From Ricordea florida (taxonomy: Eukaryota > Cnidaria > Anthozoa > Corallimorpharia > Ricordeidae), in contig OX453285.1 in assembly GCA_949710005.1 (NCBI GenBank), positions 26,447,002-26,511,001 of the forward strand: 64,000 nucleotides of DNA. Reading direction: 5' to 3'. Below the pieces are notes generated by a model. That model worked only from the letters and a program-made list of their open reading frames with translations, was not told where the DNA came from and searched no databases. The position numbers and the translations under genes are program-made. Shown one piece after another: positions 29,785 through 57,330 of this stretch. Numbering within the stretch: position 1 is the first letter of the stretch; each line of letters starts with the position of its first letter.

Positions 29785-32700
29785 CTATCGAGCTCCATGT
29801 TGACTCCGACGTCGTATAGAATCCTTGATCTTGCCAATTACCATATACGGATCTATATTCACGTTAACAGTCTGAAACAAAGGAACACGTGATCAGCACG
29901 TGTTTTAGATTGATTGGCTGATAAGTGATGCAGAACACGTCATGAACTTACCCCGAACAACTGAAGAGAGTCAATGTCTGCTCGAAGGCTGTAAAAGCAA
30001 AGAAAGAAAAGAAGCAAGATAAACTAATGAGACATTTTTGGTAGACTGTTCGCAATCTTCAACTTTTCTCTGTGATTGTCGGGATGGGCGTTATTTTTAA
30101 ATCAAATTCTTCTCGAATAAAGGAGGAAAGATGAGTCTCCAGTGCCGACAAAACAATAGAAGCCAACCCCACCCCCCTCCTCCTTAAAATCCATCCTTTA
30201 CAAAATCTCGATCTGAAATGTGGAGTGCGTTTCTTTGGTATGATCCGGATTTGGATTTGTGATCCGAGATCACACGGATCATAGCACATCAAAGGAACCG
30301 ATGAATCCTTCTCCAGAGTGGATTCACCGGTTCCTTTGATGTGCCATAAGGGACGGACCATTAGAAAAGTGATGGGGGGGGGGGGGAATTTTCAGCTTGC
30401 ACGATTTTTTTTTTTCGCTCACTGCTTGTGCAGGAATTTTTTTTTCAGGTGAACCCCTCTGCACGAATTTTTTTTACTACGCGTGAAAAAGTCACAATTG
30501 GACCTTCCTTCTGCATGAATTTTTTTTTTTTTTTACCTTCTTCTTTGCATGAATTTTTTTTCTTAGCATTTTCCGTTGCATGAATTTTTTTTTTGTTTTT
30601 TTTCCCCACCCCCCCCCCCCATCACTTTCCTAATGGTCCGTCCCTAAACTATGTAACAACGTGTAAAGAAGGCATAACATTAAACACACAGGAAGTTGGC
30701 TTACACTTCCGCTGCGCCACGGTACACAACTCTTATTAACGTTGGCAGGTCACTTCCATTGGGGGAGGGAACCTGTGGATAAACAAACTTGTTATATACA
30801 GTAGAACCCGCTATAACGAAGTGCCGCTGTACCGAAAAAAATGTTCGTTATAACGGGGTTCCACTGTAGCTGGCGTTTTTCCCACTACAACGCGCCCATT
30901 TATTGGCCAGTTCACAGTCATATGAAATCTAACAATGAAACGGTTTACTCCCAAATGCCATGAGCGGGCAAAATTGCGAAAACTATGACGTCAAACGGAA
31001 AACAGTTCATTGTTACCCGCGAAATGCTGACCGCTGTTGCACGTGATCAGAGCGTTTTTGTTTTGCTATATAACAAATCAGTTAAAGAGTGGCCCCTTAA
31101 GGAACAGTGAATTTTGTTTCCCTCGAATCCAATGCGGGATACAAAATTCACTGTTTCCCTAGGGACGAGTCCTTAAGTGTTAAATATTACTTGAGGTAAG
31201 GCAAAGTCAAAGGCACACACGAGCCACGAGGTCCACACAGCTAGGACTAATCCCTGTTTCCGTAGCATATAATGCACCAAGGAGTAAGTATCATCTCTCC
31301 TCTCCTCCCCCTCCCCCCCCTTAAACAGAATGGATTCCATCTGTACTCCTTGGTGGAGAAAGAGAGACAGTGTGCGGTTAACTTTCTCGTCTATGAAAAA
31401 CAACACCGCACCATCATCTACAATCCTGCCAAAAGCACTTAGGACTGTGACTAATGAAAATATGTTGAACATGAGCACTTTCAAAGATACCATGTGAAAA
31501 TTTCTCTTTACGCCCCCCTCTCTCAATGTGCGATGGTGTTTGATACACCGGAAATATTGCTGCGAGGGTTTGGATTAATATATCAAACACGAGAGACAGT
31601 GTTTCATCTCATATCAAACACCGACACGAGAGCTGAAAATGCGACGCGCATGAACGAAACAATGAAACTGCACGTACAAAATATAGTCTGGTAGATTTCT
31701 TTGCCGTCCTCTGCAAAACAACAACGTGAAATGATCATTTTTCAGGTTTTCTGGCTGACGCGAGTGCACAACGACAAAATTGCCGAGAGAAATCTGCAAT
31801 GAACTGTGAACGGATTAAGGCGGAAAAATCGGCGGTTTGAAAGGTTATGGAAAGGAAATAAAACAAGCCTGCCGCCATTGGTACAGGAGAAAAACAAATC
31901 CATTTTTTCGAACATGCCGTCTTTGGCGTCGTGGTCGTTCTTGCTTAAGCTCCCCATCCACAATACTAAGGGGGGGGGGAAGGAGAAAGGGTTAAGCTCC
32001 CCATCCACAATACTAAGGGGGGGGGGGGAGGAGAAAGGGTTAAGCTCCCCATCCACAATACTAAGGGGGGGAGAAAGGGTTAAGCTCCCCATCCACAATA
32101 CTGAGGGGGGGAGAAAGGGTTCAGCTCCCCATCCACAATACTGAGGGGGGGAGAAAGGGTTAAGCTCCCCATCCACAATACTGGGGGGGGGGGAGGGAGA
32201 AAGGGTTAAGCTCCCCATCCACAATACTGAGGGGGGGAGAAAGGGTTAAGCTCCCCATCCACAATACTGAGGGGGGGAGAGAAAGGGTTAAGCTCCCCAT
32301 CCACAATACTAAGGGGGGGGGGGGAAAGGGGAGCTGTATCAGTCAAGGTATTAAGATATGTCCACTGTCCGCAGGATTTATACCAAAATTGTAGGTTGGA
32401 ACCCCGGACACAGAGCACGCTAACCTCCACATTGTCTTACCTCCATCACTTGAATTAACAAGATGTTTGAGTCAAGCAACCTGAGCAGATCAGGACTTAC
32501 CAGCTTAGGAAACACCATCCCAGCACTGAGAGCATATAATCCCATGTCATCACGAAGCGCTAAAAACGTGAGATAAACAGCGCACTTAGTTAATGAGGAG
32601 GAAGTCCTTAACCCGAAGTCCGGATCTCTGTTATTTTGCATTGCCCATTGTCATTGGTTCCCTAATGGCCAATCACATTGGGTCTTATAATCACGACAGT

Positions 32701-35700
32701 GCGGCACCTCTGATTGATTGACAAACAATGCGAAAAATCTAGCAATGCCACGTACAGTTCAAATATACAATTTATCTCAATCAAAATCAGGTTATCGCCG
32801 CAATTATTTATCGAAACGAACTTACCTGCCACACAGAAGTACAGAAGGCGGAACAGATCTTTACACGGAGTATGACTGATTAGAATGATCTCATGGGAGG
32901 CAGAAGGAGTCTGAGAAAAAAAAAACTAATAAACGCCCATGTTTGAAAAGGGAGACCATTCTGTGGAAAGCTACTGAACTGTACTTTCGGGCGGTTCTGT
33001 TTGTTTTACTGTACAGTGTGGTTCTATCTTTTTCATCTGTGGATCAAACCATGCAGTGTGACCATTCTTTGCAAAGCTACTGAACAGTACTGTACTGTGG
33101 TACTGTTTGTTTTACTATACAGTGTGGTTCTAACTTTTTCATCTGTGGATCAAACCATGCAGTGTGACCATTCTTTGTAAAGCTACTGAACAGTACTGTA
33201 CTGTGGTACTGTTTGTTTTACTGTACAGTGTGGTTCTAACATTTTCATCTGTGGATCAAACCATGCAGTGTGACCATTCTTTTAAAAGCTACTAAACAGT
33301 TCTGTACTGTGGTACTGTTTATTTTACTATACAGTGTGGTTTCTACCTTTTTCATCTGTGGATCAAACTAGAAAGTGACTAAACAGCTCGTTCAAACGGT
33401 CCTACTTGTTTCAAACACAAACTGATACATCTAGTTTCACAAGCTTCGAAAAATGAACTAAGAATAGAAAGTGGTAGGGTTGTGGGATTCGGCGGTTACT
33501 GTAGACCTTCAGGGGTGTCTTCTGAAAAATCATTCCTATTCATTCGTATGTGCGTCGCTTATGTTATAACCAAAGGAAAGTAGATATCATGGTAGAGCTA
33601 ATAAAATGTACAATCAGAAGAAATATATTTTGTTAAGATTTGGTTTAATGGTAAGCGCGCAAGTCTTCAAACGCAAAATTGACAGTGTTTTGTGAGACTT
33701 TTTTGATATTCCTATTGGTTGCCGAGAAAATCTATTTTCAAGTTGGCGAATTGAATATCTGCCGATCTTCGTCACACGAGAGCGCGTAAAACGAGAAGTA
33801 TTTGGAATATCGCCTACTGATTGACATTGTGTAGTTTGTTTGGTCGTGCGTGCGAGCACGAAGGCAGCTAATTCAGTTTACCAAATAGTGTCAGTTTTAC
33901 GTTTGAAGGCTTGCGCGCGCGTACCATTAAATCAAACCTTAACAGAATATATTTCTTCTAATTCTAAATTTTACTATCTTACCATGATACATACATTTCT
34001 ATGGTTATAACATAAGCGACGCGCATACGAATGATTCTTTGGAAGACACCCCTGAAGGTCTACAGTAACCTTAATAAAAAGCCTTGACATTCATAATGTG
34101 GGAACCCAGAGCTCATCTGCTAGCTGCGCCATAATGAAGAGGCCTAACAAGACCGAAACAGCTGTCCATGGCTGCTGTCTTATGAGTTCTATTTTAATTT
34201 TTTTTTGGTAGCAACAGGGTTTTATCCCTTCTATCACTGTCGCCTAAGTGCGCATATGTGTGGCTTTAACATGCTCTTACTATATTTTGACTTCGTCATT
34301 CTTAGCCACATCCCACAACCCTACCATTTTTCATCACCTTGACATTCATAATGCGGGAACCCAGGAACAACAAGGTCTTATCCCTTCTACCACATATCCT
34401 TACTAATGTTTGACGTAGGTCTAAGAATGGACAACTCACCAAATAGGCCATAACACTGGCATTTCCAAACTGAGCTGCCAGGCCAAGCATGTTGTGAATC
34501 TGCAACAACAATATTACAATCACAGGCGTTCACAAGTTTACTTCATTAACAACTACCATAGCACGAACTCAGCAAAGAGAATTTACACATTGATCAATGT
34601 GTTACGCATTGCTCAATTTGTTACTCATTGATCAATGTGTAAATTCTCATTACAATATTGAACCATAACAGAAGCCATTACCTTCCTCAGATATAAGAGA
34701 GTTTATGACACTCACTACGGCGAATTGCTAGTTTGATCGTGGGAGCGAAAGGTCTCATTGTTCTCCTTCTTTAATGAAAAAATAAAAGCCTTACACGATA
34801 AAGAGTCGTGAAATAATTGTCGCCGTGATGGGATACGGCGTAGTGCACAGCTGCGGCGTGAAATCTGTTCCATCGTGCTGAAGAGCAAAGGAAAAAAGAG
34901 CAGTTTTAACATCACGGGCGTGCAACTAAATCCAGAGTGAATGCTCTGCTCAATCTATTAAGATATACACACTTCAATGAAGAAATCAAAATCTTGAAGT
35001 AAATATATGTAATAATAGAGTGTTAAAGTTAAAGTGTGTGTCTTCCACACGAACAAAGGACACGTAATCACCGTAATATGAATCTCTGGCCAAGGTCACG
35101 TGGAAGTGTGGATGTATCTGACTAGCGCTTGCTTTGGGCAGAGTATCCCAGTAAATGTGAGGAATGGTGTATTTCTTGTCCAATAAATGTGCTTCTTGAA
35201 ACCTAGTGATGAAAGCAGCGAATAATTTATAAATACGAGGAGAATTTAATATTTAGTCCCGTCGCTAATTCCCAGAGACACTGAAGAGTCACAGAGTTGG
35301 ACTGGGAACAAAAGCAGCTGCATTATACTTGATTACACTAAGACACGAGGTCCGACCTTTGACACTTAAGAATCAATTAATCAGTACGTTGAATTTAAGT
35401 AATGGTCCGGCTAACAAGCAGGCAGAAAAACAATAGCGCTCGGCAAAAGTGTCAGTTAATTTTGTGGTGCTAATATATTGGCGCATAGAGCAAAAGCCAA
35501 ATTTGGCCGAGAGACAGAAAAGAGAGATATGGAACAGACAAGGTCTAAAAATGAGGTTTTCTTAAATTTTTCCATTGTTTTTTTTTCGGGGTTTTTTTAG
35601 TATTAGCCAATGAGATGAGGCGATTTAAATGGAATTAACAATTAACTGTTCGCACTTTTTTAATGAGTTTTGCGGTACATCTGCCTACCTTTTAGCTGGA

Positions 35701-38700
35701 CCATTACTTAAAAGCAATGAAAAGGAACTATAATTGTCCCGTGGGGTTTCTCACAACTAACACGACATTGGAGGTGCGGTGGTCTGACAAAAATCTGACA
35801 ATTAAAACAAACGAAAACTTCAGTTTGGTAACGAACAAAGACTCCCTAACACAGGAAACCCAAGGTGATAATACATTCTTACCATTTTTGTGCCGTTTCC
35901 AAGGCATCGAGCAACTGAAACAACAAAAGAGGTTTATTGCAATAACTTGTACGGAACAACGTGTGAGAATAACACAGATGAGATCAAGTCAAGTTAACAG
36001 AGAAATTTTTTTTAATGGAAACTGTGACTTCAAAACAGCTGCTTTTAAACGTGTTTGAGGGTTTCACTACTAAGGGAAGGACCATTAGAAAAGTGATGGG
36101 GAGGGGGTGGGGAATTTTCAGCTTGCACGAATTTTTTTTCCGCTCACTGCTTGTGCAGGAATTTTTTTTTCAGGTGAACCCCTCTGCACGAATTTTTTTT
36201 ACTACGTGTGAAAAAGTCACAATTGGACCTTCCTTCTGCATGAACTTTTTTTACCTTCTTCTTTGCATGAATTTCTTTTCTTGGCATTTTCCCTTGCATG
36301 ATTTTTTTTTGTTTTTTTCCCCACCCCCCCCCCCCCATCACTTTTCTAATGGTCCGTCCCTAAGATCTAAGAAGTAATTCTCCTTACTGAAAGACGCCGT
36401 CACATGTTCTCCCCTGAGGTTACTCACCAGTGATCATCAAAAGTTCACAGCTATTCCACAAAGGAGTGCGATCTGGTTGGCCAATGTAGCATCAGACAGG
36501 TGTTCACTATTTTCTTAACCCTTTCCCTCCCAAAAGTGACCCATATACAACTTCTCCTCGACTTATCAATACATTAACAAGATGATAAGTGATGAGAATT
36601 GAAAAGGTTATCAACTCAAAGATATTGAATTGATCTAAAAATAAATTCTCCAGACTAACATGTAGGACAGTGTATAGCAGTCACTGAGGAGAATTTCTCT
36701 GTAGATCTTAGGCGTAAAAGGGCTAAGACGGCCTGACGACGGGATCCACACTATAAATTGCAAATGTAAACTTTACTTTACATGAGAGAAACAGACCTAA
36801 GAAATTATCGAACTACGACCAACAACCGCAATAGTCTCTTCTAAGCCAACCGCCAGCCGGTTAGCTCAGTTGATAGAGCAATGGACTACCGTGCGGGAGG
36901 TCGCGGGTTCAAACCCCTGCCGGACCAATACTCAGGGTCTTTAAATAACTGAGGAGAAAGTGCTGCCTTTGTTATGACATCTGCAGATGGTTCGACTTTC
37001 TGATCTTCTCAGATAAGGACGTTGAACCGTACGTCCCGTCTCAAAACCCTTGTTCATAATAACTTAGTGGGAAGTTAAAGAACCCACACATTGATCGTAG
37101 AGTAGGGGACGTAGTTCCCAGTGTTGTGGTCTGGCCTCTGGGTTGGCGCTTCACATAGGGATAACCTCATTGCGCCTTTCTCCCTTGGACAGAATTTTGC
37201 AAGAAAACTAAGTATGTTCTATGTTTTTAAACTCAGGGAAAATAAAGAAACCTTTCCTCGATCTTTCTCCCTCAGCTCACCGTTCGCTCGGGTTCCTAAT
37301 TCTATTGCGCTTTTCCTGGCAGTGAACGCCTCGACTGACAACGCACCCAGCCTTCAAATAACGAATTAAAATCAGCTCTCCTTAAACTAAAGAACAGCGC
37401 TCTCATCACTATATACTGTATGGTTTGATCCACAAATAAAAACGTTGGAACCGCACTGTATAGTAAAACAAACAATACCACAGTACAGTACTGTTCAATA
37501 GATTTACAAAGAATGGTCACACTGCATGGTTTGATCCACAGATGAAAAAGTTAGAACCACACTGTATAGTAAAACAAACAGTACCACATTACAGTGTTGT
37601 TCAGTAGCTTTACAAAGAATGGTCACACTGCATGGTTTGATCCACAGATGAACAAGTTAGAACCACACTGTATAGTAAAACAAACAGTACCACAGTACAG
37701 TACTGTTCAGTAGCTTTACAAAGAATGGTCACACTGCATGGTTTGATCCACAAATGAAAAAGATAGAACCACACTGCATAGTAAAACAAACAGTACCACA
37801 GTACAGTACTGTTCAGTAGCTTTCCAAAGAGTGGTCACACTGGGTTATATTAAATTGATAGTTAAACCTGAGAGTTCAATATGTAGAAGCTCATACGTTT
37901 ATTGGATTTATCAGCAAAATCCATAATTAAATTTCGTTTTCAAAGTCTGAGGCTCCTAGTGCTAATAACTCTCACACCAGTTATAATTCAGGTGAAGTGT
38001 TATATGACACAAGAAAATCTTTAACACCACTCAAACTCAAAGAGGTCCGCCTCGACGATTCTTTATTATAAAAGGTTACTAACACCGCCAATTTAAAACA
38101 ATTGGTTATTCGTTCTTGACGGTTACTTCCAATTTACAACACAATTTTAAAAAACTATTAATTTTCATACTCCTTGCGTAATATCGCAAGGAATTTGATA
38201 CTGTTACTGAATATTTTCAGATCGATTTGATCTAAAACTTTAAACTGTTGAAATCCTGTCAACGAAAGCACATTTGATTTTAAAATTAAAAATCGAGTTA
38301 ACACTAATAATTTGAATGGACCCATATAAATCTGTCATGCCTTCATCAAGCGGCAGATTAAAAGCTAAAACTTGAATCTTTAATTACGGGGTCCTCTAAA
38401 CGTATCACTTTAAGCAAGATCAAATTTAAGAATTGACCAATCAGAGACCAGAATGCGACCTTTCCTTAATGGTCTAACGTCCTCGTGTTAGAACAAAACA
38501 ATTAGGTTTTACCATTCGTTGGAAAGATACTTAACGGCACTTTCATAAAGAGCTACTGAGCTCGGAATATCATTTTAACTGAAAGGATTATTTCAAATGT
38601 TCTCCAAACTGCGGATATTTAGCATATTCAATTTGATTTACAAGGAATCTACTGCATTCACTTTGGGAAGGAGACGATTTCATTATTTGAACAATTTAGT

Positions 38701-41700
38701 CAGATGCTCTTACAATGTGCTTTTCATTCGTGTTATCATCGTATTCATCAATATTGACGGACCGAAGGCAAACAGTGGAAATGGTTTTTCGGTGATTCTT
38801 TCACAAACGACTGCGTTACCACAGTGACTAATAGTCAAAGTGGTGCCGCCAGCGCTTCACTGGATCCCCTGTCTAAACGTTTTAGTCAAACAGTGGTTTT
38901 TTGTGTAAAACCTCTTACTTCCACAGTACAGTCTGCAGTCAAACAACACTGATGGATCAAACATCTGACGCTTCACTCTCGGAATCAAGCCTTGACTACC
39001 TCTACTTTTCAACCCTTTCACTCTCAGAGTCAAACCTTGACTCATGCAAAAAAATTCAGTGACAAAAGAGTTGATAAATGTAAGTTGTTATTAAAATAAA
39101 AGGTGTGTTAGTGTTTCGAGCGTTAGCTCTTCGCTCTGACAAAGGACTGACGCTAGAAAAGTTATCTTCCCTTTTATCCTAAGGTGTTACAACTTACACT
39201 CATCTACGCATTTCAGATAGAGCCTTTTTCGTGTGTTCTAATTTCCAGTTCTTTAGCAATTGTAACTCCTTCATTAAGTCAAGCAATGGGGTTCTACTTT
39301 TCAACACTTGCATTCTCAGAGTCAAACTTTGGAGTTATACAGTGATTCTAATTCATTCTTTTTTTGCCTAAATCAACCGTGACCGCAACTATGGCGTTAT
39401 ACCCTATTAATGGGTATTGTTAGTATTTTAATACTTTCAAAATCGTATTTTTGAGAATATTTGAAGATGTAAACGAAAAAGTCGCCAGCAAGTAAAAAAG
39501 AAGTTAAGAAATAGTCAAATGTTTCAATGTAATGAGACTTAAAACGAACCCATAAATTTTTTTAAAACTACTTAGCTTTTTGACAAAACGCAAAACGTTC
39601 AATACAAAACGCTTTGTTAATTTCCTACTTGCCTAGAGGGTAGGTAATTTCATATAATATATCAGTAATTGGCAACACAACCCAGAAAATTAATTTCTCG
39701 ATAAATTCATAACAACATGCTGTGTTCGTTACAGCGAACACCTTCTGGACAAGGTCGCGTTCGAGAACGGCAGACATCGATTGACAATTGTGGCAACTCT
39801 CTAAGACATACAAACGGAACCTTCTAATTATTTAATCAGTGTCTTCGGGGTACACCGTTCTTTTACCTGTTAAGGCAAAAAACAAGCAAATAGATAATAC
39901 GAAACCCGCAATCCTCTGTATTAACACCTGCAAAGGACAACACAATTTGACGGAAAAAAATTAGCCTTAAAGCGAAATGGGAAACGCGATATGATAGCTA
40001 GAATTCATTGATATTCCATGGTAATATCATTCGCAAAACAAATGAATTATGCGGTTGACCAGTACATTGAGTAACATTATACAACAACGCCTACACCAAG
40101 CGACCTCCTGAGAATATTAAATCGCACTTTACGAGCCGATTGTGTTGCGAGTAAATACTTTCTACTGAATTTTGGAAAAGAGGAAAGTCCTACCGTCTGC
40201 TTACCCGAGGAGGCAAAGACTGGCGAACTTGGGATATACAGTGGCCCGAGAATAGTATTTTTCTCACTTGCCGCGCAGAAAATGCAAAATCGCATCCGAA
40301 CCCCGCAAGACAAACAGAACAACACAAAGACGGTGAATGTCATGTAAATTTGTCTGAACAGGTGAAGGGGGATCTGAACGCGAACTAGTCGTAGATTTCA
40401 TCAGACCGAAAAAAAAAAAACAATTAAAACAGAACAGGATAACGCTGCATGACAACAGCCACCAAGAAGGGGTTCGAGCGCGCGCATGAGAAAGCTGCAT
40501 CTGAAGGAATCAAGGAAATACTGGTTAATGATTTATCAGCTTTTTAAAATTTTCTAACCCACGCCACCTGAAAAGATACTTTCACTACAAGACTAACCAC
40601 AATACGCATTGCTTCAAGCCTTCAGAAAATCAGCAGAAATCGAGTCTTAGAAAAAGGTAGGTAGATTGCTGACTAGGTTATCGAAGCAAGCTTGGTATAC
40701 AAAAGATAGGAGTACGTCAAATATAACTACACAATACAACGTGTACATGCAATATCCGCCTAAACTGGCAAGTGAAAGACAGTTGTCTCGCTTCAAGTGA
40801 CTTCTATACTTAAGCGGGTTTTTGTGCGATAAATAAACAGGGTCTCGTCGCACTTTCCGGCAGCGGACAAAATAACTGTGAAACTGTTGAATCTCAAAAG
40901 AGAAATGACATCCCCAACAAACACGACCACACTCCCAGACGCGGGGCAAAACGACGGAGAGGCAATTCTAGGAACGGCGTTTTTTATATCAGGGACGTTT
41001 CTCGCCGTCGTCTGCCCGCTTACAATTCTTGCCAACGGTCTGCTATTGATCGCGATCTACAAAGACCCGTTTAAAACGTTTCGTACCCCAATGGCGTTTT
41101 TCCTGGTGGGTTTGGCTGTTACAGATCTCGTCACCGGCTTAATACCTGAACCTCTGGTCACAGTGTGCTACTTTCTACGCTACCGACACCACCCTAAACA
41201 GATTCATTGTGAAACAATGTTCAAAGTCGCTGGTATTGTGGCTGCCATCACCACAAATGCGTCCTTCTTCATTGTGATGGCCTTCACTGTGGCGCAGTAT
41301 GTGGCAGTAGCATTTCCACTCAAGTACAAACGCTTCATCAGTGTTAGAAAGACCATGATTTGCATTGCTCTCATTTGGGTGTACGCTTCGATGTTTGAAG
41401 TTTCACAAATGATGGGAATTCCGCAAGAGATTGTGGAGAAAATCGATCTTCATCTTCACTCTACTTTCACCCTTCTTCTCACTATTCTCACTTATGTGCT
41501 GCTTCAGAAAGCCTTCCGAAAGCAGATGGTAAAACGGTCCATTACTCTAGCTGAAACAAGCACAATGAGCTCCAGTCGCACACAGGACAGCACTCGAAGA
41601 CAAAAACGAAAGCCGATAATGGAAAAGAAATTCATCAGAATGAACCTTGTGCTTATAATTGTGCTGTTAGTGTGTTCACAGCCCAGCGCGCTTTTGTGGT

Positions 41701-44700
41701 ACATATTCTTGTACTCAGATGAAAAAACTCGAACAAGTCTGACTCTATTTAAATCTCGCATCATTGCTGACAACACGCTGTACCTTAAATTCCTGCTTGA
41801 TCCTTTTGTGTTCGCTTTGAGGCTTCCTAAGTATCGTACAGCTCTCAAAAAAGCGCTCTGTCGCAGTGGTTAGCCCGACATGGGAAAAACACAACACAAA
41901 CTATACAAAAACAGGAGTCATCTTAAAAAAGAATCACAATGGACGTTGAATGCGATAAAGATGGGAGCTCATTGCGTTAAGAATGAACATGCAATTGACA
42001 CTAATTCATGGTGTGAAAGTGTATAGGAAAATTACATCACCAATGTCATAAAACACTCAGTTCAACCGTTAGCTATGGCATTAATCAAACGGCCTCAAAG
42101 TGAAAACATTTCACGTTTTCAATATAGACGCCAAGTTATCAATGCTCATTAACATATAAAACGGATAATTAGGGGCATAAAAAGGCCGCTGAAAAATATG
42201 CTTTTAAGTTTAATTTACTGTAATTGATAAGTGGAGGAAAACCGCTTCTGTCACATGGAATGCCAGAAGTATGAAGTGCTATGAGCAATGGAACACACTA
42301 TAATACGCTGATTTATAGATTTAAAAATACGAGGTTTCCACTTTCGATCAGCAAGAAGACAGAAATACTAAACTGCACCGTTTTAACTCGTGCATATATG
42401 AAATAGTTAAAGGCAGACTGAATGTAGAACAAACAGTACCACAACACAGTATTGTTCAGTAGCTTTCCAGAAAATGGTCACACTGAATGGTTTGATCCAG
42501 AGATGAAAAGGTTAGAGCCACAATGTGGACATATAAGTAGCCCTTTGTAGTCTTAATTCCATTTACCAAGTACCGATAAAGAGAATGCGTTAGTACTGAT
42601 ATAAACACAGTTAGATACTTGTTGTTAAGACACTTATTGCGTAACTGATAGATATGCACTCTTGCAATACGACGAAAGACTGCTAACTACAGGTACTAAT
42701 AAAGTACAGTCGACACCCGCTAACTCGGACCAATTTTCGTTTCCCTTCAAGTCATTTTTACTCGGGCTTTCCAAGGAAAAAGCCGGAGTGAAAATTCCGG
42801 CTTCGTTTTTTTTTTTCGTTCTGTGGCAAATCGCAGTCAAGTCCTTAACATGCATGCGTGTGGTAAATCGCAGCTTAAAACTACTACACATGCTGTTTTC
42901 AGCTCTGTACAATGACACAGCTGAAAAACCTGCATCTCTGGCGTACCATGACAGAAAACAATTATGACAGGATAAACAAATAATTCCATAAAAAATACTA
43001 ATGCAGGCACAAAAAAAAAGTTTCTTTCCAACATAATGCCCGAGTGAACGCAAATATGCGTCTAGTCTATATAGTTTTATCATTGATAACTCGAACTCCC
43101 GATAACTCGTAACTTTTTCAATGTCTCTTGAAAGTTTGAGTTATCGGGAGACGACTGCACCAACAAACTGAATTACCTGTTCTTCATATATCTCAAGCGG
43201 GTTATGATGTTTCCAAATGACAAGTCCATGGAATTTCTCCACTTTAAAGGTATTAGAAACTGAAAACAGAGTCAACAGTTATAAACTTGAATGTATGAAA
43301 TGTCATGTCCCTAAACCGCGGAATCAAGATTTAACAGGTGAAGAATTATTGTCGTTATGTTTTTGTGGTTCTGGTATGTACATAAAGAGTAGATAGCTGT
43401 TCAAAAAAGGTTTTTTCGAATTCCACCGTGTTTTTACCCTGAAACCGTCGCTCACAGTTCCCACTTGAGCCACACCCACCGAACTTGACCGAGTAGTAAG
43501 GAGTATGGGTCTATTCTTGACTTGACGTCACAAACTGATTTGCATGCATGTTTATAAAGACTTAATGATATGCCAATCAGTTTGTGACGTTAAATCGAGT
43601 AGTATGTAGCTATCTACTTTAGCTATCTACCCTTTACCTGACTGACCTCATCTGTCCTTATGTTCCTAGGCGCCCTCTTAGGTCCGCTGACCAACTTCTG
43701 CTGGAGCAGCCAACGCACAAGCTCAAATCGATTGGATTGAGGGTTTTCTCAATATGCGCGCCTTATCTCTGGAATTCCCTTCCATTTGAGATTAAAAGCA
43801 GCGGATCTGTCCCTATTTTTAAAGTTAAGCTTAAAACCCATCTTTTTCGACACGCCTATGTTTAGACTTTTGACTTTTTTTATTCTTAGGTTCTCTATAT
43901 TACAATATTTAGTGTATTTAGAGTATTGTGTATTGATTATAATTTATTTGACACTGTAAAGCGCATTTGGGCTCTTAATCAATTAATTATGTTCATACCA
44001 GAACCACAAAAAAAAAAAACAGAAGGCGATATAGGCACTTTAAACAGTACAAATAGCGTCATAAGACCGTTGTTAAAATCTCTCGCTGCGATAAAACAAC
44101 TTTGGTTTTGTTAATACAAGCATATTCATAGGTAACACGAGGCAATCAGTTTGATATTGATCGCACACTGTTTTTTTTTTCAACTTAATTTTTAACGCAA
44201 ATTAAATCAAGGAATGCGTTTGGGTCTGTTTTGAGTTCAGGAATAGCGATTTGAAAAAAAAAAAAATTCTTACCTGTTACTGAATGTCGGGATTCTATAG
44301 ACCCGAATGGATCGCTAGCGGTCATACTGTAAAACGAATGAAACATTTCAAACAGAAAGAAAACGTATTACATCCAGGAGGCAAAATATCACCCTGGACA
44401 AAAACGGAGCTGGAACGTTGACGCTAAGAAAAAAACTGTCCAATAGCGGCTTGATTAAGAATAGTTACACAGCATGGTTTGAACTTAAAAGAAAGTTAGA
44501 ACCACACTGAATGGTAACAGTACTGTTCAGTAGCTTTACAAAGAATGGTCACATGCATGGTTTGATCCACAGACGAAAACGTTAGAACCACACTGTCTAC
44601 AGTAAAACAAACAGTACCATAGTACAGTGTTGTAATATATAAAGGGAAACTTACGTCTTATAATTACAAAAGTCACAATCTTCAGCAGACGTCTTGATTA

Positions 44701-47368
44701 TATCAGCAACACTAAAGAAGGAAAGTGTAAGAGTAAAGGGCTTATCGTCTTTTCTTACTGCCATTCAGTACCAATGACGAAATGGCTGCACCTCGAGCAT
44801 TTCTAGCTTCTTGAGTGCTTAGCAAACCTCCCAAGTGCGTCCATAACTACATGGTTGCACAGTTGCTGCGTTTACCATCTTTTTATAGCATAACACTTCC
44901 CAACTTCACAATGTGACGTCAGCATGCAACCCATGAGCAAATGCATCGCGCGTATTAGCCAATCAGAGCGCGCGCTTTCCAAAAGCTATGTTGTAATGAA
45001 CCAAGCAAAACATTAAGAAATAGAAAACATTTTGCGTGTGTCTATCGAGTTTAAGTATAAATATACTAGCGTTCTATCACAAATGCCGCGCTCTGATTGG
45101 TTACACTACCCACTATCTGTTCTGTGATAGATAGTGAGTAGCGTAGCAGAGTGCCCTTGCTAACAAAATGGCGACCGTTTCTTCACGTTTACGAAGTGTC
45201 CGTGAAGAAGATGGATCATGTATCTTATGGGGGGCCTCGACCGATATCTCGGTCGACACATCGACCGAGATATCGGTCGATGTGTTGACCGATACTCGAT
45301 CGATACTCGGTCGATACGTCGACCGACTCTCGATCGATACTCGACCGACACTCGGTCGACATACCACCGATATATCGGCCGACATATCGGCCGATATGTC
45401 TGACACACATGTCCGCCGCTATAGTTGATACTTCACCGATACTTTACCGATACTTCACCGATATCTCACCGATACTTTACCGATACTTCTTCGTCACGTC
45501 GCCGAGTGTATCATGCCAGTTTATTGTTTTTGTTGTAATTTACTATAAAAAAATAACACATTTAAGTGTCATAATTACGATTTAATTAGAATGCTTATCT
45601 ACTTCAACTTTTTACAGGCTGATTCAAGTCTTAAAATCTTGAAAAAATTTTGTTGCAATATAAAATTTTTTGTTTGAGTTTTTTAAGTCATTATTTCATT
45701 AATTTAGGGAAATGTTTCTCCATTTATAAACGTTTTAAGTAAATACAACGTCTACCAAAAGCAGAAAATAGAGACCGGAAAAATTAAAATATCTATTTTT
45801 ATTAAACAACTTGACTTTTCAATTAAGTTGATGGGAATAACCCAGTCTCTCATATTTTTCCTCTCTCGTGCTTTCTCTGTTGCTCTTGTAAATGACATAT
45901 CGGCCGATATGTCGATCGAGGAACTGTAAAACTTATCCGACAAAGATCGATAGTTTACCGACATGCGACCGATAGTTGGCCGATAACCGACCGACACTAT
46001 GGCGATCGATAGTAGCGGTCGACACTCAGATGACAATATCGGTGGTATGTCGACCGAGTGTCGGTCGAGTATCGATCGAGACTAGAAAAGACAAAGTTTT
46101 GAACGACTAGTAGATTTATACTAAAGCAGTAAGATTATTCGCTCTCGATTTCTATGCGAGATAGTTGACGAGGGCACAACTATCACGCGATAGAAATCTC
46201 GAGCTCATAATCTAATTGTTTAATAGAACCACGAGTGGAAGTAAGCGAGTATTTGGACAGCTTTTTTGAGTTCTCGCAAACTTTCACGAGTGTTTCTATA
46301 ACTCAATAGAAACACGAAGAAAATGTGTTCTATTTCTTGCAGTAAATACCCCAAAGCCCGTGACTACCACAACTTTTATGCATTTTCTAAATTTGTTTAT
46401 TCTTACTTACTATTTCTTAGTCTCTGGGGTTGCTTCTCCTCCAGCCCCAGGTCGCTTCCCCCGCAGAGGATTAAAAACAGTTGATTCTTGGGTGTAAAGG
46501 TTGTCTATCGTAGTAATATGCTGGAGTGCAATAATGACATTTAATGATTATTCTCTGAAATTGACGTGACTAGTGGGCCACTATTTACTGAACTGCAAAG
46601 GAGGGCAATGGACACCATCAGTGTGAAAATACAACAAGCTGGTATCATCTGCAACAAGTAACATCTCGGACAAGTCAGAGATACTAGGCAGGTCATTAAT
46701 GTCTAAAAGGAAAAGTAAAGGTTATAAAAAAGAGCCCTGGAGTAGACCACACTTAATACGGTGAAGACATGATGAGACATTGTTGTATTGTACAAATTCT
46801 TCAAAATCAGTTAGGTAACTTTTAATCCACTGCAAGGCAGTACCACGAAAGCTATAGTGCATGAGCTCTTGAAAAAGGACATTGTGATTTAAGGGACGGA
46901 CCATTAGAAAAGTGATGGGGGGGGGGGGCGGGGGATGGGGAATAAAACAAAAAAAAATGCATGCAAGGGAAAATGCCAAGAAAAAAAATTCATGCAAAGG
47001 TAAAAAAAAATTCATGCAGAAGGAAGGTCCAATTGTGACTTTTTCACACGTAGTTAAAAAAATTCGTGCAGAGGGGTTCACTGAAAAAAAAAGTCCTGCA
47101 CAGGCAGTGAGCGAAAAAAAAAAATTCGTGCAAGCTGAAAATTCCCCATCCCCCCCCCCCATCACTTTTCTAATGGTCCGTCCCTAATGCGCTAAATGCT
47201 TTGAACAGATCAAGTAAGACCCTAAGAGTAACTTCATTTTCATCAATTGAAGACGCTATTTTATTAGTGAGATGAGTAAGTGTATGGTATGTGGCATGGT
47301 TTTTTTTCTGAGTCCAAATTATCATCCTTATCCGAGAAGACTAGAAAGTCTAACCATTTACAGATGTC

Positions 47369-47402
<34 letters not shown>

Positions 47403-50400
47403 TAAGACCCTGAGTGTTGGTTCGGCCGGGCTTGAACCCGGAACCTCCCGCACGGTAGTCTGGTGCTCTACCAACCTGTGGTAACATTGAAAAACAATGC
47501 AATGGTGATGGACGCGTAAGAATCCGCTCCGGCAAGTTTGGCCACTTTTTCCATCAAAAATGCCTGATAAAGCCAACAAACGAGCAAGAGAAGGTAGTTC
47601 TAGCTCTACAAAGTCAGATGAGGCACACTCCGACATTACGTTAAAATCTATAATGGAGAAATTGGAGTGCATTCAAGAGTCATTAGATTCGAACTTTGCC
47701 GAAGCCATGAGTGAAATCAATAATTTACGAGTAGATGTAAATGCCCGGCTTTCGATCTTAAAGAGCACCACAGACGATTTAAAAACATCCTTGGATGCCG
47801 CCTGGGTAGAAATAGAAACCTTAAAACAACAGGATGAGCAAAATAGGCTTCAGTTAGCTGAATTTATGAAGGAGAATGCACAACTCCAAGCTGAAATGTC
47901 TGCTACTAAAGCGAGAGTGATAAAGCTAGATAATTATACTAGAAGAGAAAACATACGGCTTCTCAATGTCCCCGAAAACCAAGACGAAAATTGCAAGGAA
48001 ATCTTACGAGGGTTGATGGCCGCGGTCAAAATGGAAGGTGCGAACAAAGTTGAATTCCATGCAGTTCACCGTATTGGAAAACAAAGAGATGATGGAAAGC
48101 CTCGCCCAATTATTGCACGGTTTGTCAACCGCGAAACCAGAAATGACCTTTGGCATCGACGAAAGGGTCTTGCTAACTCTCCAAATCACCAACATGTCAT
48201 CCTGGTACCCGACTATGCTTACGAGACTGCGAAGGAGCAAAAGAAACTGTCAATTGCTTTACGAAACGCCAGAAGGATGAACCTTTCCCCAGCATATATC
48301 AAGAATGGACGGATCTTTGTTCAAGGAAATTCATTTTCAGCGGACAATATTCCGGAGTGCTTTCAGTGCGATAAAGCTGTTTCAATGGACACATAAATAT
48401 CCTTTACACTTATAGTAACTTTAGTGCTACCCATGAGTGTTACAATTTAAGTTATTTACGCTTTTTAACTAGAGCCAACCTATTGCCGATGACAACCTAT
48501 TGCTGATAGATATATCTTATGTGCCCTAAGTATGTTATTTTAACTGTCCTGTATCTTTGTTTATATTCTGGGTTGCTAAATTATTTTGATATTTTGTTTT
48601 GTGATGTTTCTCTTTGTGCTCTCTGTCTTTGTTTTCTCTGTTGTGTTTTTTTGTTTGATATTACGAGGTCGCCACTCCAGGTCCATCTCCAGCTTTTTGA
48701 ATCATGTCTTTCAATTCGTCAAATTTTTCCAAAGTAGATAATCTAGCGATATGTTCCTTGAATGTCAGGGGACTATCGAGCGAGGCTAAGAGAAGAGAAA
48801 CTTTTAATTGGTTAAGGTATAAAAAATACTCTGTTTATTTTTTGCAAGAAGTGCACAGTTCAAAAGAAACGGAAAATCTATGGTTAGCTGAATGGAGTTA
48901 TAGAGGTCTGTTCAGCAGCCTCTCAAGTTCCAGAGCTGGTGTTTCCATCTTGTTCAGTAACAATTTTTCTTTTGAGATACTAAAGTACTTTTCAGACCCT
49001 GACGGAAGATTCATTACAGTTGATATCAAAACAGAAGACAAAACTATAACCCCACAAAATATTTATGCGCCAAATAATGATGATCCGAACTTCTTTCAAA
49101 GTGCCTTTGATAACCTTTCCACTTTTGAATGTGAACATTTGGTCTTAGGAGGAGACTTTAATCTAGTACAAAATATTCAAAAAGATAAGAAAGGAGGAAA
49201 TTTTACCACTCATTTTAAATCATTAGAAGTAATTGAAATGTTCAAAGAAAATATGAATTTGACGGACATTTGGCGTGATCTTCATCCGCACTCTCAGCGT
49301 TTCACGTGGAGAAGAAATAAACCAGAAATTCACTGTAGATTAGACTTTTTTTTGATTAGTTCAAGCTTATCTACCGATGCACTTGAGACGGATATTCTAT
49401 CGGGCTTTAAAACTGATCACTCTCTTATTACGTTGTCTCTTGGCACTAAAACAAACCCCAGAGGACCAGGTTTCTGGAAGTTGAACTGCCACTTTCTAAA
49501 GGATCTTGAATATATTAATCTTATTAAGGAGACCATAAATGTAGTGTCAAATGATTACAAAGAAGACGAATCAGTAGACGCGGTGCTTTTATGGGATGTG
49601 ATGAAAATGCAAATAAGAGCAGCTTCGATTAAATATGCAAAACAACAAAAGGCAAAGCAAAAATGTACTGTGAAGGCCCTAGAGACTGAGATTTTAATGC
49701 TTGAATGTAAACTTGAAAATGACCTTTCCGAAGTTGAGAAGCGTGAAGTCCGCATGAAACTAGAGATTAAGAAACAAAGCTTAGAACAATGGATCAAATA
49801 CAAAACCCAGGGTTCGATTATCAGGTCCAGAATGCGTTGGTACAATGAAGGTGAGAAAAATACAAAGTATTTTTTTGAGTTGGAGAAAAGGCATTTTAAT
49901 AGTAAAACAATAAGAAATCTGAAAATCGATGACAACATTATTTTAAACACAGATGAAGAAATCTTAAATGAAGCGAAACGCTTTTATCAAGCACTATACG
50001 CGTCAAAAAATAGCTCTTTTCAAAACGTTTCTGGCGAAGACCTTTTTTTCCAAAAAGAGAACCATTGTACAATAAGTGATATTGAAAGAAAACTTTGTGA
50101 AGGTCTGCTAACGGCTGCTGAATGTCTGGAAAGCTTAAAAACTATGGAATCAAACAAAACACCTGGTACGGACGGAATTCCAGTTGAATTTTATAAAGTC
50201 TTTTGGAATGACATTAAGCCCTTTTTTCTCTCTGCTATTAATGCTTCCCATGCTAAAGGCCTTCTCTCCATATCACAGAGGAGAGGATTATTAACTTTGA
50301 TTCCAAAGAAAGATAAATCTCTATGTTACATAAAAAACTGGAGACCCATCTCGCTTTTAAATTGTGATTATAAAATCGCAGCAAAATCAATCGCTAACAG

Positions 50401-57330: not shown

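Follow-up and report, generated by a model that had tools for sequence, protein, structure and literature searches.

Organization of the locus

The window, the whole stretch of 64,000 nucleotides that was analysed, lies on contig C14. Its content, with rhodopsin-like GPCR open frames, a BORCS6 stretch and a LINE encoding endonuclease and reverse transcriptase, is typical of an animal, perhaps a coral or another cnidarian. On its minus strand, a chain of 17 exons was rebuilt whose start codon is the ATG at 57330 and whose stop codon lies at 29785, the limits given for such a gene in an earlier note on this DNA. As in that note, all 16 junctions agreed in phase, and the frame persisted across a LINE, repeats and MITE-like copies, all of which are spanned by the chain. 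Two details differed: the chain was 1491 nt in length and encoded 496 aa plus the stop (497 codons), not exactly 494 codons, and minus-strand frames longer than 150 aa, said to be absent, were present inside the interval (153, 167 and 168 aa, measured from stop to stop). A second in-frame ATG was located at 57297, a start at which would give 11 codons fewer. Introns varied in size from 80 to 7262 nt.

Exons were sought on the minus strand by means of splice scores, open frames and reading of the possible peptides and sequence, and were chosen by eye, a resemblance to proteins of the GALT type serving as a guide; 16 were assembled first and exon 5 was added afterwards. Candidate sites were restricted to GT-AG, which is found at all junctions by construction. 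The weak splice sites were the donor of exon 2 and the acceptors of exons 3 and 4. The exons, with the evidence for each, and two open frames lying in the introns are as follows.

57031..57330, minus strand: exon 1; start codon(s) 57330 / 57297; donor CCT/gtaagt; RRPRR (16-20) and hydrophobic stretch (21-39)
54813..54919, minus strand: exon 2; phase 0 in; the least certain exon
53847..53931, minus strand: exon 3; phase 2 in; donor AAG/gtaagg
52964..53017, minus strand: exon 4; phase 0 in; splice sites and phase
48701..52498, plus strand: LINE ORF2 (endonuclease, reverse transcriptase) in intron 4; 1265-aa open frame
46411..46520, minus strand: exon 5; phase 0 in; 110 nt; FNPLRGKRPG stretch; GalT profile and splice ranking
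44655..44711, minus strand: exon 6; phase 2 in; CDFC pair; GalT profile comparison
44274..44326, minus strand: exon 7; phase 2 in; GalT profile comparison
43177..43259, minus strand: exon 8; phase 1 in; HGLVIWKHHNPL; GalT profile comparison
40911..41873, plus strand: rhodopsin-like GPCR open frame in intron 8, on the opposite strand; 7tm_1 E 8.9e-18
35883..35914, minus strand: exon 9; phase 0 in; paralog alignment
35072..35202, minus strand: exon 10; phase 2 in; triad SQIHPHFH; paralog alignment; tblastn with the paralog E 1e-4
34795..34877, minus strand: exon 11; phase 1 in; paralog alignment
34440..34499, minus strand: exon 12; phase 0 in; paralog alignment
32826..32910, minus strand: exon 13; phase 0 in; paralog alignment
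32501..32559, minus strand: exon 14; phase 1 in; paralog alignment
30705..30772, minus strand: exon 15; phase 0 in; paralog alignment
29952..29988, minus strand: exon 16; phase 2 in; paralog alignment
29785..29871, minus strand: exon 17; stop codon; paralog alignment extends to the VNxDP stretch

A gene of many exons lying among transposons is ordinary in animals. Thirteen of the 17 exons, 5-17, are supported by homology; as a whole, from exon 1 to exon 17, this gene is likely to be real.

A one-exon paralog covering exons 9-17

Searches of the same genome covered 538 Mb in 48 contigs. When the spliced exons 6-17 (277 aa) were used as the query, 12 matches were obtained, 10 of which were the window's own exons, the other two being on contigs C16 and C6. 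The match on C6 was an uninterrupted frame with an E value of 7.6e-20 and 30% identity over query residues 61-261 in the whole-genome search; it is situated at L014 3485-4156 (minus strand), and the sequence upstream of it is partly N. The match on C16 was dropped, having an E value of 0.98 and a stop in the genome search and 7.8e-5 against the 10-kb stretch alone without composition correction.

Comparison of the chain with the C6 paralog by BLASTP, without composition correction, gave 97.8 bits (E 5e-29), with 60 of 218 residues identical (28%). The alignment crossed the eight junctions of exons 9-17 with two gaps, one of 19 residues and one of three, and the triad was kept (IHPHFHV in the chain, HHGHSHM in the paralog). 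The 16 exons assembled first had been fixed before the paralog was discovered. Two sets of 1000 control chains were drawn, one on the plus strand and the other on the minus strand after masking of these 16 exons. The best of them reached 18.9 bits against the paralog, drawn peptides of 30 aa or less being omitted from the comparison; none of the 2000 had 17 exons, so this control addresses content and not length.

A single exon of the paralog corresponds to nine of the window gene, and the eight introns that separate these nine are absent from the paralog. A consensus acceptor precedes the paralog's coding block, the start of which shares the phase of exon 9 and lies within 2 codons of that exon. 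Exons 9-17 were accepted because the spliced product aligns colinearly with the paralog, and on this homology the gene is real over exons 9-17. With the paralog as the query, the genome search returned only the paralog itself and part of window exon 10 (E 0.47); two members are thus known in this genome.

Similarity to GALT

The peptide ASASQIHPHFH resembles the GALT active site, and a GalT alignment was therefore built from nine GalTs, namely that of E. coli and eight plasmid-encoded ones (from bacteria and one archaeon). The full chain aligned with this profile (hhalign) over 230 columns with a score of 38.0, an E value of 2.8e-4 and a probability of 41%, a comparison not wholly independent of the exon choice, since the likeness to GALT had guided the picking. 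The aligned region comprised residues 190-431, encoded by exons 5-14. Before exon 5 was added, 160 columns had aligned, with the triad already in register and a score of 26.3, and 60 column shuffles gave 20.5 or less. The trimmed chain (residues 184-496) scored 34.5 with a probability of 31%; 200 shuffles of the GalT columns reached at most 22.3 in this comparison, and among 100 shuffles of the query columns one gave 33.5 and the rest 20.6 or less. The E. coli GalT alone scored 28.8, again with the triad in register, and six unrelated targets (GPCRs, GalE, GalK, GalM and two LINE pieces) scored no higher than 14.1.

A published report states that in E. coli GalT His166 carries the uridylyl group and that zinc is held by C52, C55, H115 and H164, a site lacking in human GALT, in which not all of these ligands are conserved (PMC5081055). 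In our alignment, the CDFC of the chain was placed on C52/C55, H324-P-H326 on H164-P-H166, and KRP on R31-P32. At the zinc-ligand positions, C231, C234 and H324 were thus aligned, and H274 was one column off H115. The paralog has HGH at the HPH motif, and the triad in the form HxHxHxx is present in both proteins (HPHFHVT in the chain and HGHSHML in the paralog). The third triad position in GALT is Gln (Gln168 in E. coli, Gln188 in human), and Q168 was invariant in all nine GalTs aligned, whereas this residue is His in the chain (His328) and in the paralog. The similarity to GalT was continuous across the 7.3-kb intron 8, and on this ground exons 5-8 were joined to exons 9-17; it is very likely from these profile comparisons that they belong to the same gene.

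Searches of domain and sequence databases told against a GALT assignment. Neither the chain nor the paralog gave a significant Pfam match, and PF01087 and PF02744, the GALT families, were not found at E values up to 5 or 10. PF02744, the GALT C-terminal domain, matched four places in this genome, all on contig C2 and none at the window gene; the Pfam domain of the Leloir enzyme is encoded elsewhere in this genome. No match to PDB sequences was found for the chain at E values up to 10 and no NCBIfam match for exons 6-17. Three PDB matches of the paralog (galectin and DFF among them, E 0.08-0.2) and one of the profile (E 0.49) were judged to be due to chance. No relatives were detected in prokaryote contigs, viral contigs or plasmids, in searches that best reach close relatives, and no paper on such a gene was among those listed by literature searches. 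When the raw minus strand was scanned with Pfam as blocks of 5000 residues in three frames, with X at stops, all six blocks gave zero families at E values up to 5, a procedure in which short exons are missed. A gene of small exons, missed by frame length and by domain scans of raw DNA, was recoverable and could be proved within one genome by way of a compact paralog.

Because the Pfam search gave no GALT match and the third triad residue is His, the product is described as GALT-like and not as GALT. It has in common with GALT the 230-column profile alignment, HPH at the nucleophile site, the CxxC and the KRP stretch, and it differs in having His in place of Gln168 and in its apparent N-terminal membrane anchor and stem. 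The histidine-triad hydrolases of the HINT/FHIT type have an HxHxH triad, as has the window gene; compared with HINT and FHIT, the window gene encodes a longer domain with CxxC and gives no Pfam match. The GDP-sugar phosphorylases (GDPGP1/VTC2) perform GALT-related nucleotidyl chemistry; from these, the window gene differs by the membrane anchor and by the lack of a Pfam match. The HxHxH triad in both paralogs, where GALT has HxHxQ, makes it possible, although less likely than not, that the protein belongs to a different histidine-triad branch, as a nucleotide hydrolase or phosphorylase, and is not a relative of GALT. The RP stretch, CxxC and triad, however, align together with GalT over the 230 columns, GalT being the sole histidine-triad branch compared, and relationship to GALT is preferred here.

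Exon 5 and the proposed joining of exons 1-4

Exon 5 (46520-46411) was first spotted because it resembles the beginning of domains of the GALT type. It was then ranked within the 317 phase-fitting stretches that the minus strand offers from the LINE side to exon 6; with the chain lacking exon 5, these made a set of 318 entries. With a GalT-profile score of 34.6, it ranked first of the 318, as compared with 28.0 for the chain without exon 5, and its splice score ranked second of 317. Among the best 12 of the 318 entries, the alignment ran through the exon for 46520-46411 alone, those of the others starting at template residue 109 or 117. Of the 318 entries, 263 exceeded the chain without exon 5, and the runners-up, many of them lysine-rich or repeat-rich, scored 32 to 33; insertion of any sequence thus accounts for part of the rise in score, and exon 5 leads by a modest margin. 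If the other exons are as assembled, 494 codons would imply an exon 5 of 134 or 137 nt; this was rejected, the eight phase-fitting candidates having donor scores of 0.0 or less.

A query of exons 2-8 (183 aa) gave seven genome matches at E values up to 10, all of them the window's own, indicating that these exons are single-copy and not repeats. No homolog of exons 1-4 was found elsewhere in this genome. Pfam matches on exons 1-4 (GP41, E 0.12; Cmr1_like_C, E 0.14 and 0.17) were far below the cut-offs and were taken as chance.

Between exon 1 and exon 5, 318 phase-consistent routes were obtained, lying outside the LINE and using up to four exons above the splice thresholds. The chosen route through exons 2, 3 and 4 ranked fifth. 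In the best eight of these routes, exon 3 occurred six times and its donor in all eight, exon 4 five times and exon 2 twice. The frame of exon 5 contains no Met before its acceptor; an exon with an acceptor and no preceding in-frame Met needs an exon upstream. We infer from splice sites, phase and this absence of Met, and from these only, that exons 1-4 are joined to exon 5 across intron 4, which is 6.4 kb in length and carries the LINE.

The length and content of that intron, the lack of a homolog of exons 1-4 in this genome and the four routes scoring above the chosen one would also fit a locus with two genes, exons 5-17 having other 5′ exons and exon 1, with or without exons 2-4, being part of another transcript or non-coding. 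We regard this as rather unlikely, given that exon 5 demands some upstream exon and that exons 3 and 4 occur together in four of the best eight routes, with the exon 3 donor common to all of them.

Integrity of the gene and phase statistics

A 1-kb probe from the LINE gave at least 33 genome matches on many contigs, many at 97-98% identity, which suggests that the element moved recently. Exons buried among repeats that include such a LINE might belong to a decayed or unexpressed copy, but all 17 exons are open, with no stop or frameshift, and splice scores are fair to good at most junctions, so that a pseudogene seems improbable. One gene is the reading retained.

The earlier note had considered accidental agreement of all phases very unlikely. 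This was not borne out by a chain finder based on dynamic programming, applied to 20 Markov-1 nulls per intron cost: in-phase chains of 17 or more exons were found in 20, 19, 17 and none of the 20 at intron costs of 0, 2, 4 and 8 bits, respectively. The real minus strand outscored the nulls at every cost (64.5 bits versus at most 32.1 at cost 8), but the finder's best chain of 64.5 bits consists only in part of exons from the final chain. The final chain itself scored 33.6 bits at cost 8, barely over the best null, and splice and codon scores alone are therefore insufficient as proof. That the whole is an in-phase chain picked from noise, as random sequence so readily supplies at low intron cost, is refuted for exons 9-17 by the colinear paralog similarity over eight junctions, far above the control chains, and deserves almost no credence. 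A single gene running through transposons, as the note proposed, is the best reading, on homology and not on the argument from phase.

Predicted protein and proposed function

The N-terminus of the predicted product has a basic stretch, RRPRR, at residues 16-20, followed at residues 21-39 by the highest 19-residue hydropathy (1.9). By the positive-inside rule, a basic stretch before a hydrophobic run reads as a type II anchor. N-x-S/T sequons were present at residues 2, 119, 378 and 438. We consider it probable that the locus is one 17-exon gene whose 496-residue product has a putative type II anchor, a stem and a catalytic domain distantly related to GALT. The basic and hydrophobic stretches would form the N-terminal type II membrane anchor; a putative stem of about 150 residues would connect it to the catalytic domain of about 310 residues, which profile comparison would place in the histidine-triad superfamily as GALT-related. 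If the anchor reads as it looks, this domain would face the secretory lumen or the outside of the cell.

By analogy to GALT, H326, the middle His of the triad, may react with a nucleotide sugar or another nucleotide to give a covalent nucleotidyl-histidine intermediate, and C231, C234 and H324 may bind a stabilizing zinc. From the intermediate, the nucleotide would be handed to an acceptor such as water, phosphate or a sugar phosphate. GALT has Gln where the third triad residue here is His, and for this reason the acceptor chemistry probably differs from that of the Leloir enzyme; the triad together with the apparent membrane anchor suggests a reaction unlike that of the Leloir pathway. No histidine-triad nucleotidyl transferase is known to act inside the secretory pathway. 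A membrane-anchored, lumen-facing family of GALT fold with an HxHxH triad, unseen by Pfam and handling nucleotide sugars in the secretory pathway of this animal, is no more than a tentative proposal, with the odds against it. The results point to a GALT-like enzyme group unrecognised by Pfam, and this group is the part worth following.

Repeats and neighbouring coding sequences

The LINE as a whole occupies 47509-52498 (plus strand), with a 295-aa frame upstream of ORF2. Three MITE-like elements, each about 300 bp long and alike in their inverted ends, were located at 30340-30648, 36064-36363 and 46883-47187, all of them intronic. Two arrays of 106-bp units in opposite orientation, at 32949-33352 and 37438-37841, were 92% complementary over 404 nt; they lie on either side of exons 9-12, so that pairing between them in the pre-mRNA would be possible. 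Units related to these arrays were also observed at 42.4 and 44.5 kb. A G-rich 40-bp tandem repeat of about seven copies at 31945-32330, in intron 14, overlaps the 167-aa minus-strand frame. In addition to the GPCR frame in intron 8, two further GPCR frames are present in the window, at 17.6-18.6 and 23.7-24.7 kb. A BORCS6-like coding stretch at 57747-58382 (plus strand; PF10157, E 2.9e-35) is arranged head to head with exon 1 at a distance of about 0.4 kb.
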